A stretch of DNA of 23,524 nucleotides from Alphaproteobacteria bacterium (GTDB taxonomy: Bacteria; Pseudomonadota; Alphaproteobacteria; Rs-D84). This document shows positions 8,419 through 12,300 of this stretch, one piece after another (position 1 is the first letter of the stretch; the number at the start of each line of letters is the position of its first letter). A program made the translations under genes and the position numbers. Where the stretch lies: contig JAGCET010000026.1 in assembly GCA_017650505.1 (NCBI GenBank), positions 1 to 23,524 on the forward strand, in the 5' to 3' direction. Under the pieces are notes generated by a model. It worked only from the letters and a program-made list of their open reading frames with translations. It searched no databases and had not been told where the DNA came from.

Positions 8419-9048
8419 CTATCGCAAACGGTCCGCGGCCAATCGTTTTTGTTGGGCCGTATATTTTTCGTTCACAATATCCGACAAGAATTTCGATAAA
8501 TCGTACGAAATTGTTGCAATTTGAACAAAATTTTCATCCCCGTCACGTTTGAACACATAACCAGTCCCCGACATTCCACCGCACCATTTTGTTCCGGCCG
8601 TTGCAAAATCGATGGCGTATTCCCGGAACAAACAACGCTTTGGCGCACGCGGTTGGTGTTCGGTTTCTTCAAAATAATCAACCGTAATTATAGTCTGGGC
8701 CGATAGTCCTTTTATAACCGCGTCCAAATCTTTGGCGTGTATTTCCGCAGATATATCATATTCTGTTGATTGATTTTTCTTTGACTTTGCAATACGTTCA
8801 TCCGCACGCGCCATCGCACAATTCAATAACCTGTTATTGTTGCCATGATCCATATGCGCGCGAAAATGATGCGCGTACGTTTTGAAATATTTTATATCCC
8901 GGTCGATATTTTCGGGATTTAACAAATCCATACGCAACCGATATGCCGCAACAAACGGTGCAGAAACGGCCGCAATGGCGGTATCGCCCATAGTGGCCAA
9001 TGTGCGCAATATGCCGTTAGTTTTTTCTGTTTTATTCATATCTTTCAT
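8419..9048 (-). CDS. Hypothetical protein, 209 residues
   Basis: I do not recognise a family. The N-terminal part (about 10-45) contains an alanine-rich hydrophobic stretch (T-A-I-A-A-V-S-A-P-F-V-A-A-Y) that is too short and polar to be a confident membrane helix. Residues 48-105 are charged and helical with several His. The C-terminal part has paired cysteines (K-R-C-L-F-R-E-Y and K-W-C-G-G-M-S-G-T-G-Y) and ends in a basic helix. AAAGGT lies nine bases before the ATG at 9048, favouring that start over the Met at codon 4. Codon use resembles the core genes. It converges on tRNA-Thr and diverges from the ileS leader. Confidence 0.7.
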   Translation of the reverse strand: MKDMNKTEKTNGILRTLATMGDTAIAAVSAPFVAAYRLRMDLLNPENIDRDIKYFKTYAHHFRAHMDHGNNNRLLNCAMARADERIAKSKKNQSTEYDISAEIHAKDLDAVIKGLSAQTIITVDYFEETEHQPRAPKRCLFREYAIDFATAGTKWCGGMSGTGYVFKRDGDENFVQIATISYDLSKFLSDIVNEKYTAQQKRLAADRLR

Positions 9049-9091: not shown

Positions 9092-9120
9092 TTGTCAAAA
9101 AAATACTGGAAATTTGAAAT
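9092..9120 (+). promoter_or_regulatory. Candidate promoter of the ileS leader transcript
   Basis: TTGTCA (9092-9097), 17-base spacer, TGAAAT (9115-9120). The start would fall near 9127, just ahead of the leader-peptide ribosome site (TAGGG, 9135-9139). The -10 box is a weak match. Confidence 0.35.
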
Positions 9121-9143
9121 TTTATGTATTAAACTAGGGCGCG

Positions 9144-9176
9144 ATGAAAACAAAAGAAATAATTATTATAAAGTAA
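9144..9176 (+). CDS. ileS leader peptide with four tandem Ile codons
   Basis: The frame encodes M-K-T-K-E-I-I-I-I-K and stops at TAA (9174-9176). Codons 6-9 are ATA-ATT-ATT-ATA (9159-9170). TAGGG at 9135-9139 is a plausible, slightly close ribosome binding site. The run of isoleucine codons immediately before a gene for isoleucyl-tRNA synthetase, followed by a terminator hairpin, is the signature of a control peptide in ribosome-mediated attenuation, as in trp, his and ilv leaders. Low charged tRNA-Ile would stall a ribosome here. The AT-rich context makes a short Ile run by chance conceivable, but the geometry with the downstream hairpins argues against it. Confidence 0.7.
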   Translation: MKTKEIIIIK

Positions 9177-9183
9177 TTCGGTG

Positions 9184-9226
9184 GCGCGCTTTGGCGTTGG
9201 CCTGGGCGCGTGGGCGCCTGTTTTTT
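9184..9226 (+). promoter_or_regulatory. Attenuator of ileS: alternative antiterminator and terminator hairpins
   Basis: Terminator: GGCGC (9205-9209), loop GTGG, GCGCC (9214-9218), extended by G.U pairs, followed by TG and six T (9221-9226). Antiterminator: 9184-9191 pairs with 9204-9211 around a CGCGC/GCGCG core (9185-9189 with 9206-9210), with G.U pairs on both sides and a 12-base loop. The two share 9204-9209, so only one can form. A ribosome stopped at the Ile codons leaves 9184 onward free; one at the stop codon (9174-9176) should cover it. ileS begins 30 bases beyond the T run. Confidence 0.65.
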
Positions 9227-9255
9227 ATAATAAAAAACCAATGGAGTATACAGAT

Positions 9256-12200
9256 ATGGCATACAAAAAAACGGAACCAAAGGCAGACCTTAGACGCATC
9301 GAGCACGAAATGATGGAATTTTGGCGTGCAGACGACACGTTCCACAAAACATTGGAAAAAACAAAAATGGGCGAACAGTTTAATTTCTATGACGGTCCTC
9401 CGTTTGCTAATGGTTTGCCGCATTGGGGACATTTGGGCGTTTCTGCGGTCAAAGATATGGTTTCGCGGTACCAAACTATGCGTGGTCGTTATGTTGAACG
9501 CGCATTGGGTTGGGATTGCCATGGGTTGCCCGCAGAAGCGTCGGTTGAAAAAAAACAGGGACGCACCGCAAAAGACATTGTGGCAAACGATGGTATCGCC
9601 GCATTTTGTGATATGTGCAAAAGCGATGTTATGACATATTCTAATGAATGGTTGAAATTCATAGAAAGAGTAGGGCGATGGGTTGATGGTGGTGATGATT
9701 ATGGTTATCGGACTATGGACCGGAATTTTATGGAATCTGTGATTTGGGCAATCAAAGAAATGCATAATCGTGGATTGCTGTATAAGGATTTTAAGGTCAA
9801 TCCGTTTGATTGGAAATTGGGTACAGTATTGTCTAATTCCGAAGCGTCAAGTGAATATCAAGATGTCGTTGATGATACCGTGACCGTGTGGTTCGAATTG
9901 GAAAACGGTGACCGCGCAATCGCGTGGACAACCACACCATGGACATTACCGGCAAATTCTGCATTGGCGGTGAATCCGAATATGGAATATGTTCGTATGA
10001 AACATGATGATGGACACATATATGTTTTGGCCGCATCGCGCGTCGCCGCATATGACAAAATTTTTGCAAATTCAGAAAATTTGGGAACCGTGCGTGGCAT
10101 GGATTTAGTTGGTCTGCATTATACACCACTGTTCCCATACTATACGGATTTAGCAAAAGATGGTCACGGGCTGTATACAATGATTTCCGGGGACTACGTC
10201 AGTGATAGTGACGGTACCGGAATTGTGCATATTGCGCCGGCGTATGGTGAGGACGACTATATCGTGGCCAAGGCAATAGACCCGCAATTTCCGGTCATTT
10301 TGAATGTAGATGATTATGGCAACTTTGATAAAACCGTTGCCGATTGGGCAGGTGAAAATATATTTGATGCCAATCCCAAAATTATTGATTGGTTGCGTAC
10401 AAATGGGCGTTTGGTTCGTAAAGAACAACATAAACACAGTTATCCGTTTGGGCCGCGCAGTAAAGAAAAACTTATCTATCGCGCAACAGACGCGTGGTAC
10501 GTCGACGTTCCAAAAATCCGTGACCGTTTGGTCGAAATAACCAAAAATCAAACAACGTGGACATCGGCGGGCAATCGGTTTTTATCGTGGATTGAAAACG
10601 CACGTCCATGGGGAATTTCACGCAATCGTTTTTGGGGTGTACCGTTGCCAATTTGGGAACGTGATGGCGAATACAAAATCTTTGGTTCCGTTGCAGAATT
10701 GGAAGAATTCTTTGGCGTAAAAATTGATGATTTACATCGCCCAACATTGGATAAATTGACCAAAGACGGTTGGAAACGCATCCCCGATGTTTTGGATTGT
10801 TGGTTTGAATCCGGTTCTATGCCGTTTGCATCGTTGCATTACCCGTTTGAAAACAAAGATGTGTTTGAAAAAACTTTCCCGGCCGATTATATTATCGAAG
10901 GACAAGACCAAACACGCGGGTGGTTTTATCATCTGATGATTATGGCGGTTGCACTGTTTGACAAGCCTGCTTTTAAGACTGTTTCTGCAAACGGTATGGT
11001 TGTTGATGAAAACAAACGAAAGTTTTCAAAATCACTGGGGAACTTTGTAAACCCAGCACAGCAATTGGAAACATACGGTGCAGATGCGGTTCGTTTGTTT
11101 ATATTGGGCAGTAATTTTATGAAGGCCGAACCGGTTCCGGTGGATAAAGAAGGTAAAGTATTTAACGAATCTATCAAAACAATTCTGACGCCATTGTGGA
11201 ATGCATATCATTTCTTTACATTGTATGCGAATGCGGGTAATATTGTTGCACACGACGTGTGGAATGCACCAACACGCAATGTATTGGACGAATATATATT
11301 GAATGAAACAAATGTCCTTGTCCGTATTGCGACAAATGCATTGGACGAATACAAGCCCGATGTTGCCGTCAAAGAATTTGTTCGATTCTTGGATGTTTTG
11401 AATAATTGGTACATACGACGGTCGCGCGCACGTTTCTGGGATGAAGATACCGATGCGTTTAACACGCTGTATACGGTATTGACCACTGTATGCCGCGTTT
11501 TGGCACCGTTTGCACCGTTTATTTCAGAATATATTTATAAAAACCTGACCGGTGAAGAATCGGTGCATTTGACGGATTTTCCAACGGCAGTCGAACGAGA
11601 CGAGAAAATCGTTGATGATATGCGCCGCGTCCAAGAAATAGTGTCTGTGGGTAATCAATTGCGCGAGCAGTACAAATTACGCAATCGTTTGCCACTTTCT
11701 AATTTGACGGTTGCGGGCGGTCATGCGATGCCTGAATATACGAATATCATTCGTGATGAATTGAATGTAAAGGCCGTAGAATGGGTCGACAACACCAATA
11801 AGGTTGCGGACAGTTTCATATATCTGATTACGCCAAAAATTGGCGCGCGATTGGGCGGCGCTTTGCGTGATATCGTGCCGGCCGTAAAGCGTGGCGATTA
11901 TGAAATTGACGGCGACAAGTTGGTTGTTGGCGAATATGTATTGAATTCAGACGAATTTGAAAACCGTTTGAATATTCGTGACGGCGTCACGGGTATGGCA
12001 TTACCGGACAACACGGCGGTTGTTATTTTGGATACTGAATTGAATTCCGAACTGATTGCCGAAGGTTTGGCGAATGACGCACTGCGTTTCATCCAAGACA
12101 CACGCAAAGCGGTTGGTTTGGATGTTTCGGACCGTATAAAATTGACTTATACAGCGGATTTAGCGCTGTCGGGGGCCATAGAGCAACATCGCAAACGTAT

Positions 12201-12300
12201 AATGTCCGACGCGTTGATTCGCGAAATGTCGCCGGGCGAAGCCGAACATTTTACAGATATAAACGGGTATAACTTTGGCATATCGATTGAAAAGGTGTAA
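9256..12300 (+). CDS. ileS: Isoleucyl-tRNA synthetase, type 2-like
   Basis: 1014 residues from the ATG at 9256. IleRS charges tRNA-Ile and edits misactivated valine. I chose 9256 because GGAG (9243-9246) sits nine bases upstream; ATG 9241 and GTG 9181 have no ribosome site, and GTG 9181 lies inside the attenuator. HIGH motif: G-L-P-H-W-G-H-L-G (53-61). KMSKS motif: K-F-S-K-S (589-593). W-T-T-T-P-W-T-L-P-A-N marks the CP1 editing domain. W-D-C-H-G-L-P-A-E and E-R-V-G-R-W-V-D are typical of type 2 (eukaryote-like) enzymes, several of which resist mupirocin. The Cys-Trp usual after H-S-Y-P-F is replaced by Gly-Pro (399-400). The small gene after it starts three bases past the stop. Confidence 0.95.
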   Translation: MAYKKTEPKADLRRIEHEMMEFWRADDTFHKTLEKTKMGEQFNFYDGPPFANGLPHWGHLGVSAVKDMVSRYQTMRGRYVERALGWDCHGLPAEASVEKKQGRTAKDIVANDGIAAFCDMCKSDVMTYSNEWLKFIERVGRWVDGGDDYGYRTMDRNFMESVIWAIKEMHNRGLLYKDFKVNPFDWKLGTVLSNSEASSEYQDVVDDTVTVWFELENGDRAIAWTTTPWTLPANSALAVNPNMEYVRMKHDDGHIYVLAASRVAAYDKIFANSENLGTVRGMDLVGLHYTPLFPYYTDLAKDGHGLYTMISGDYVSDSDGTGIVHIAPAYGEDDYIVAKAIDPQFPVILNVDDYGNFDKTVADWAGENIFDANPKIIDWLRTNGRLVRKEQHKHSYPFGPRSKEKLIYRATDAWYVDVPKIRDRLVEITKNQTTWTSAGNRFLSWIENARPWGISRNRFWGVPLPIWERDGEYKIFGSVAELEEFFGVKIDDLHRPTLDKLTKDGWKRIPDVLDCWFESGSMPFASLHYPFENKDVFEKTFPADYIIEGQDQTRGWFYHLMIMAVALFDKPAFKTVSANGMVVDENKRKFSKSLGNFVNPAQQLETYGADAVRLFILGSNFMKAEPVPVDKEGKVFNESIKTILTPLWNAYHFFTLYANAGNIVAHDVWNAPTRNVLDEYILNETNVLVRIATNALDEYKPDVAVKEFVRFLDVLNNWYIRRSRARFWDEDTDAFNTLYTVLTTVCRVLAPFAPFISEYIYKNLTGEESVHLTDFPTAVERDEKIVDDMRRVQEIVSVGNQLREQYKLRNRLPLSNLTVAGGHAMPEYTNIIRDELNVKAVEWVDNTNKVADSFIYLITPKIGARLGGALRDIVPAVKRGDYEIDGDKLVVGEYVLNSDEFENRLNIRDGVTGMALPDNTAVVILDTELNSELIAEGLANDALRFIQDTRKAVGLDVSDRIKLTYTADLALSGAIEQHRKRIMSDALIREMSPGEAEHFTDINGYNFGISIEKV

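Follow-up and report, generated by a model that had tools for sequence, protein, structure and literature searches.

The ileS leader and its surroundings

In the window, by which we mean the whole 23,524-nt stretch of DNA analysed here, the gene for isoleucyl-tRNA synthetase (IleRS), ileS, is preceded by a compact series of features (Table 1). These run from a promoter-like stretch through a short open reading frame (ORF) encoding MKTKEIIIIK, about 50 nt of structured sequence and a run of six T to a Shine-Dalgarno (SD) motif and ileS itself. The codons of the ORF are ATG AAA ACA AAA GAA ATA ATT ATT ATA AAG TAA. Downstream of its stop codon lie an upstream hairpin (HA) and two further helices, a predicted antiterminator and a predicted intrinsic terminator, which have one arm in common and are mutually exclusive. 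The terminator core (9205-9209 with 9214-9218) is lengthened by two wobble pairs to span 9203-9220. An earlier note on this DNA had read the ten-codon frame, its Ile codons and its stop exactly, and had placed the antiterminator, the terminator core and the six T ahead of ileS correctly to the base; the inner antiterminator pairs are added here.

Table 1. Coordinates of the ileS leader features in the window.
Feature	Position	Strand	Basis
Putative promoter: -35 TGGAAA (9107-9112), 17-nt spacer, -10 TAAACT (9130-9135)	9107-9135	+	analogy with relatives
Leader ORF, MKTKEIIIIK and stop	9144-9176	+	read from sequence; kept at 78/79 loci
Proposed regulatory codons ATA ATT ATT ATA (four Ile)	9159-9170	+	conservation at the run positions, 78 loci
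Upstream hairpin HA, 9182-9187/9194-9199	9182-9199	+	pairing kept in relatives
Predicted antiterminator, 9184-9191/9204-9211, inner pairs 9193-9195/9200-9202	9184-9211	+	pairing kept in relatives
Predicted intrinsic terminator, stem 9203-9209/9214-9220, loop GTGG, T6 9221-9226	9203-9226	+	sequence; kept pairing
Shine-Dalgarno motif GGAG of ileS	9243-9246	+	sequence; SD-like motif before 77/79 ileS starts
ileS, isoleucyl-tRNA synthetase, 1014 aa, proposed regulated gene	9256-12300	+	PF00133, PF08264, PF19302

The protein is identified as IleRS by its three Pfam matches, of which the C-terminal PF19302 is taken here as a mark of the eukaryote-like type 2 enzyme. When the 180 nt before ileS were dinucleotide-shuffled 5000 times, a short ORF with four consecutive Ile codons, ATG, GTG or TTG being allowed as the start, arose in 13 cases. 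The single-sequence fold of the element is unremarkable (z -1.47; 19 of 200 shuffles equally good), so that conservation decides. A GTG-started frame at 9181-12300, which would read ileS through the terminator, was rejected, as the match to homologous loci begins with residue 1 of the protein read from the ATG at 9256; the variable spacing between leader stop and ileS also disfavours it. Rfam searches of the whole window at gathering thresholds returned three tRNAs and nothing else, and a plasmid search was without match. Elsewhere in the window, a 209-aa ORF without a Pfam match at E 0.001 lies on the minus strand upstream of the leader (8419-9048), and a resolvase gene (PF00239, 13945-14889) is followed by tRNA-Gly and tRNA-Tyr genes.

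Conservation of the leader peptide and its Ile codons

Relatives were drawn from a single scan of genome contigs, which yielded 80 ileS loci, nearly all from gut or rumen metagenomes as judged from their titles. With L054 and L067 left out, as their contigs are without an ileS start, 79 loci with an upstream region were compared, the window included. Three of the 80 (L019, L067, L074) are named Candidatus Enterousia, a genus placed in the order Rs-D84 and described in the available text of PMC12306168 as having reduced genomes without amino acid biosynthesis pathways. Because the genomes searched below include that of L019 (G002), they are taken to belong to this order.

A leader with at least three consecutive Ile codons is present at 78 of the 79 loci. 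The longest run comprises four Ile codons in 74 leaders, five in 3 and three in 1, and exactly one codon separates the run from the stop in 76 of the 78. At L013 a longer overlapping frame was scored, the last ten codons of which form the canonical four-Ile leader. Across the 78 loci, 311 of the 312 codons at the four run positions encode Ile, with T as the third base in 196, A in 101, C in 14 and G in none, whereas 30 of the 389 other leader codons scored end in G (at least 3 of the 30 being ATG starts). As the loci are related, conservation is given in counts and not as a probability. The distance from leader stop to ileS start ranges from 66 to 89 nt. The one exception, L063, is without a leader and has a tRNA gene, read as tRNA-Glu from the sequence, directly before ileS; a copy of the element was not found in its genome. 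Its sister L056 keeps the leader, so the absence looks like a single loss.

Two mutually exclusive helices

Both competing helices are kept in the relatives. Over 78 leaders (74 distinct), 96.5% of antiterminator cells and 95.7% of terminator cells are paired, compared with 31-56% and 37-70% in slid registers. The addition of 21 divergent leaders (99 in total, 95 distinct) left these values at 94.0% for the antiterminator (slid, 36-61%) and 96.0% for the terminator (slid, 37-69%). The earlier note had named relatives without the short frame or without either hairpin as evidence against its reading; the frame is kept at 78 of 79 loci and the helices in 94-96% of cells.

Over the 99 leaders, double changes occur at 4 of 10 antiterminator pairs and 3 of 6 terminator pairs, numbers that shuffles of the 3' letters reach in 3 and 0 of 500 trials, respectively. 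The double-changed cells themselves are few among the 95 distinct rows (5 in the antiterminator, 4 in the terminator), and slid antiterminator registers contain 1-17 of them. The comparative case for the predicted structure is therefore one of kept pairing and of a triple change, and not of many covarying pairs. In L065 and L077, a C common to both helices has become U, and the G opposite it in each helix has become A, so that both helices remain intact. L065 and L077 are sisters (support 97), so this triple substitution counts as one event. In L013 another shared base has changed from C to U, accompanied by a change to A in its terminator partner and a G-U pair in the antiterminator.

For hairpin HA, which overlaps the 5' arm of the antiterminator, the share of paired cells is 84.0% with 78 leaders and 79.0% with all 99 (slid, 29-53%). 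Its double-changed pairs do not exceed those of shuffles, 268 of 500 reaching the same number. HA may act as a pause hairpin or as an anti-antiterminator.

Distribution of the element

A covariance model was built from 36 of the leaders, which match it by construction. Of 201 genomes of the order, 165 gave a hit with this model. There was a single hit in 163 of them and a pair in the other 2, where the second hit lies at a contig end. An even sample of the class gave 3 of 289 genomes, each with the element right before ileS; wherever its position was checked, the element was seen at ileS alone. Among the 36 order genomes without the element, 19 were checked for ileS. The gene is 44-48% identical to that of the window in 14 of the 19, split in G306 and cut by the contig end in G312 and G315; G308 and G337 gave no ileS match at E 1e-80. 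An element like that of the window was not found upstream of ileS in the 14 genomes; a frame that contains three Ile codons and starts from TTG lies at L245, and frames with two such codons lie at some of the other loci.

A scan of 400 kb of the roughly 0.9 Mb of G001 listed some two dozen sites at which amino acid runs precede a hairpin and a T-run. Among the sites listed, we judged the ileS leader to be the only convincing case.

Probable isoleucine auxotrophy and enzyme replacement

Neither ilvC (PF01450) nor ilvD (PF00920) was found in any of 96 genomes of the order, with 14 of 14 control genomes positive in the same search. Isoleucine auxotrophy is therefore probable in these organisms, and a role of the switch in isoleucine synthesis improbable.

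The switch is also found in front of a divergent form of the enzyme. At L217, L219, L228 and L236 it precedes an IleRS that is 39-42% identical over the first ~480 residues and groups in a separate clade, apart from the remaining attenuated enzymes, with a support of 100 for both groups. Among the genomes of these four loci, G464, G473 and G465 each gave one ileS match at E 1e-60, with 47-50% identity along its whole length, and in G485 ileS lies as two fragments on two contigs. The C-terminal part of the divergent IleRS may be closer to that of the window (55% in G485), and the gene may thus have undergone partial conversion. At three further loci another gene lies between switch and ileS; from its translation it resembles an acetyltransferase gene at L220 and L227 and a P-loop ATPase or kinase gene at L231.

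A probable leaderless start and a tRNA-Thr neighbour

Promoter-like sites were examined at 58 loci with 60 nt of upstream sequence and without an adjacent tRNA. At 49 of the 58, the end of the best site falls 6-12 nt upstream of the leader ATG (22% in shuffles), and at 29 the distance is exactly 7 nt (2.8% in shuffles). The scores themselves are barely above those of shuffles (mean 10.97 versus 10.32), so that the position carries the signal. In the window, the putative promoter ends 8 nt before the leader ATG; its placement rests on the relatives, as a different site scored better by the simple measure. Upstream of the leader ATG, an SD-like motif is present at 5 of 78 loci, whereas one precedes the ileS ATG at 77 of 79 (4 of 78 and 48 of 79, respectively, by a stricter motif list). 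The window is among the five, with AGGG at 9136-9139, upstream of the likely start. Taken together, the promoter-like spacing and the scarcity of SD motifs suggest that the RNA would start at or very near the leader ATG, and that the leader ORF is probably leaderless.

A tRNA-Thr(CGT) gene lies at most 47 nt upstream of the leader at 18 of 78 loci, and at a distance of 11-20 nt at 15 of these (L020, L022, L027, L028, L043, L047, L057, L058, L064, L068, L070, L071, L074, L079 and L080). The latter spacing leaves no room for a promoter between the two, and the 5' end of the leader RNA may arise from tRNA processing at these 15 loci. Adjacency to tRNA-Thr requires 10 changes by parsimony on the IleRS tree, which was built with FastTree and has 20 weak branches among its 78 inner ones.

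Predicted folding with a ribosome on the leader

The 78 leaders were folded at equilibrium, and a ribosome was mimicked by masking the 5' part of the RNA, with masks +12 and +13 extending 12 or 13 nt past the start of the A site. The antiterminator was scored on its core pairs, as the inner pairs can coexist with the terminator. For a ribosome that has the stop codon in its A site, the predicted terminator exceeds a probability of 0.5 in 67 (mask +12) or 75 (mask +13) of the 78 leaders. In the window, with the first three Ile codons (Ile1-3) in the A site, the antiterminator is predicted at 0.90-0.91 and the terminator at 0.02-0.03; the antiterminator stands at 0.52 with Ile4 in the A site and at 0.88 one codon further on. 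With a ribosome placed at the stop codon, the predicted terminator of the window rises from 0.02 to 1.00. An untranslated leader gives an antiterminator of 0.91 and is thus predicted to allow read-through as well.

In most relatives, the full-length transcript with a stalled ribosome is still predicted to favour the terminator (mean probability 0.65-0.80 for Ile1-4), and the antiterminator exceeds 0.5 in just 11-25 of the 78 leaders. When no more than the antiterminator, up to its 3' arm, has left the polymerase, this helix prevails in 47-77 of 78 leaders for Ile1-4. With the ribosome at the stop codon, the same partial transcript favours the antiterminator in 77 (+12), 71 (+13), 40 (+14) and 8 (+15) of the 78. 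The outcome thus depends on kinetics and on the ribosome footprint, and the order of folding may be decisive. The folding model supports a switch in the window and does not do so for the stalled state of most relatives. As the equilibrium folds of the relatives are equivocal, we infer the stalled-state step from anatomy and conservation. The earlier argument that the spacing fits a classical attenuator holds for the window, where the predicted terminator is complete at the stop codon; in most relatives the stalled antiterminator is not favoured at equilibrium.

Proposed mechanism and alternatives

We consider it very probable, from the comparative evidence above, that the element is a ribosome-mediated transcription attenuator of ileS, with the regulation itself being a prediction. 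The earlier note had arrived at the same reading, which gains support from the conserved frame (78 of 79 loci) and the kept helices. Transcription would begin on the leader ATG or a few nucleotides from it, and a ribosome would load onto the leaderless ORF and trail the RNA polymerase. With ample charged tRNA-Ile, this ribosome would pass the four Ile codons, reach the stop codon and cover part of the antiterminator 5' arm; the GGGCGC arm would then pair downstream, the terminator would form and transcription would end before ileS. At low levels of charged tRNA-Ile, the ribosome would stall within the Ile run, leaving the GCGCUUU arm free to capture GGGGCGC, so that the terminator could not form and ileS would be made. 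The arrangement looks like an on/off switch that would raise IleRS when charged tRNA-Ile runs low.

A constitutive terminator, or one that serves an upstream gene, for example by ending tRNA-Thr transcripts, would make the short ORF incidental. The tRNA-Thr gene close upstream at 18 of 78 loci fits such a role, and the terminator there may also end tRNA transcripts. In the window, however, tRNA-Thr lies about 760 nt away and the nearest upstream ORF of at least 100 aa is on the other strand. Moreover, Ile is conserved as codons and the rival antiterminator helix is conserved too, so that we regard this explanation as improbable. We give an equally small chance to an effect of the leader peptide or its translation mainly on ileS translation or mRNA stability, through reinitiation or coupling, rather than on termination. 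Leader ORFs near a gene have been proposed to raise its translation (PMC4833913), but here 66-89 nt, with the terminator and the U-run among them, lie between the leader stop and ileS, which mostly has its own SD-like motif. Direct sensing of uncharged tRNA-Ile or isoleucine by the RNA without a ribosome, as in a T-box or riboswitch, is the least probable reading: T-boxes do precede actinobacterial ileS (PMC1262725) and have the terminator/antiterminator logic in common with the element, but the only Rfam matches in the window at gathering thresholds are tRNAs, what is conserved is a translatable run of Ile codons and its stop, and the ~50 nt of structured sequence after it would leave little room for a stem I or an aptamer.

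Other Ile leaders before ileS in the class

Beside the attenuator described above, leaders of other types precede ileS elsewhere in the class. A leader ending in Ile-Ile-Ile-Pro-stop is present at L111, L112 and L115, and one ending in Ile-Ile-Pro-stop at L113; at all four loci the leader codons overlap a palindrome resembling CCCC-TAA-GGGG. In other alphaproteobacteria, an Arg-Ile-Ile-x-Pro leader with conserved codons (CGA-ATY-ATH-NNC-CCG) was observed. Its pattern (CGAATYATHNNCCCG) gave 58 matches in 36 of 115 genomes, and the reversed pattern gave 9. Twelve of the 58 matches, in 12 of the 115 genomes, lie 104-253 nt upstream of an ileS match on the same strand. Ten of these 12 loci were folded (L168, L169, L181, L182, L192, L197, L198, L203, L204 and L206). 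A hairpin between the CCCG arm and a downstream arm forms in 8 of the 10; at L168 it forms just weakly and at L181 it does not form. In 5 of the 10, no more than 5 of 100 shuffles attain the energy. None of the ten, nor L139 or L142, has an Rfam match.

The Arg-Ile-Ile-x-Pro and Ile-Pro-stop leaders may represent other forms of ileS control. We tentatively extend this to a joint reading, which is possible but to which we give somewhat less than an even chance. Leader control of ileS would be a general alphaproteobacterial habit with several architectures (four Ile codons; Ile-Ile(-Ile)-Pro-stop; Arg-Ile-Ile-x-Pro with a GC hairpin); in this order it would have outlived both isoleucine biosynthesis and replacement of the enzyme, and tRNA-Thr 3' processing would provide a nearly leaderless 5' end for ribosome loading where tRNA-Thr lies 11-20 nt upstream.

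Comparison with known systems

The element is real and conserved across most of its order, and by its anatomy and kept pairing ileS would be a new target of classical ribosome-mediated attenuation. In the literature searched, mostly outside subscription journals, no paper describing leader-peptide attenuation of ileS was found. The suggestion in the earlier note that the case may be new stands to that extent; it is tempered by the other Ile leaders before ileS in the class and by an 'ileS leader CDS' of Caulobacter, CCNA_03934, which had already been named, as a negative control, in a ribosome-profiling study (PMC4117421). The available part of that study gives no mechanism for CCNA_03934, which resembles our leader in being a small CDS before an alphaproteobacterial ileS. 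The probable leaderless start and the missing isoleucine synthesis genes are additions beyond the earlier note. With this element, alphaproteobacterial ileS joins the few synthetase genes for which there is evidence of leader-peptide attenuation. Its host order has very small genomes, and the switch has been kept although ilvC and ilvD were not found. This retention suggests that even an auxotroph with a heavily reduced genome gains from a dedicated device that keeps the level of a synthetase in step with its charged tRNA. The simple two-helix design, its natural variants, the natural loss at L063 and the enzyme swaps make the mechanism directly testable.

In Escherichia coli, the biosynthetic operons trp and ilv are controlled by ribosome-mediated attenuators. 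Like these, the ileS element combines a leader with cognate codons, mutually exclusive antiterminator and terminator helices and a U-run before the structural gene. Unlike them, it controls a synthetase gene, in an order with ilvC and ilvD in none of 96 genomes, and its leader ORF is without an SD motif in 73 of 78 cases.

Among synthetase genes, attenuators have been described for pheST in gamma-proteobacteria and, as candidates from comparative analysis, for trpS2 and leuS in Streptomyces (PMC1262725). The ileS element resembles these in its predicted classical leader-peptide attenuation of a synthetase gene, and it differs in the synthetase and codons concerned and in being nearly order-wide and nearly always single-copy. 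A further parallel, within the class, is trpL of Sinorhizobium meliloti, where the leader ORF starts at the 5' end of the RNA and is leaderless, and for which trans roles of both the RNA and the peptide are reported (PMC7298713, PMC10117765). The ileS element would likewise be an alphaproteobacterial attenuator, with a probably leaderless leader ORF, whereas Trp codons precede trpE(G) there and Ile codons precede ileS here. Finally, the ileS switch is a counterpart of the tRNA-binding T-boxes found on ileS elsewhere. In both, feedback from tRNA-Ile charging to ileS is proposed; the actinobacterial T-boxes, unlike the ileS switch, sense the tRNA directly and are proposed to act on translation initiation (PMC1262725).
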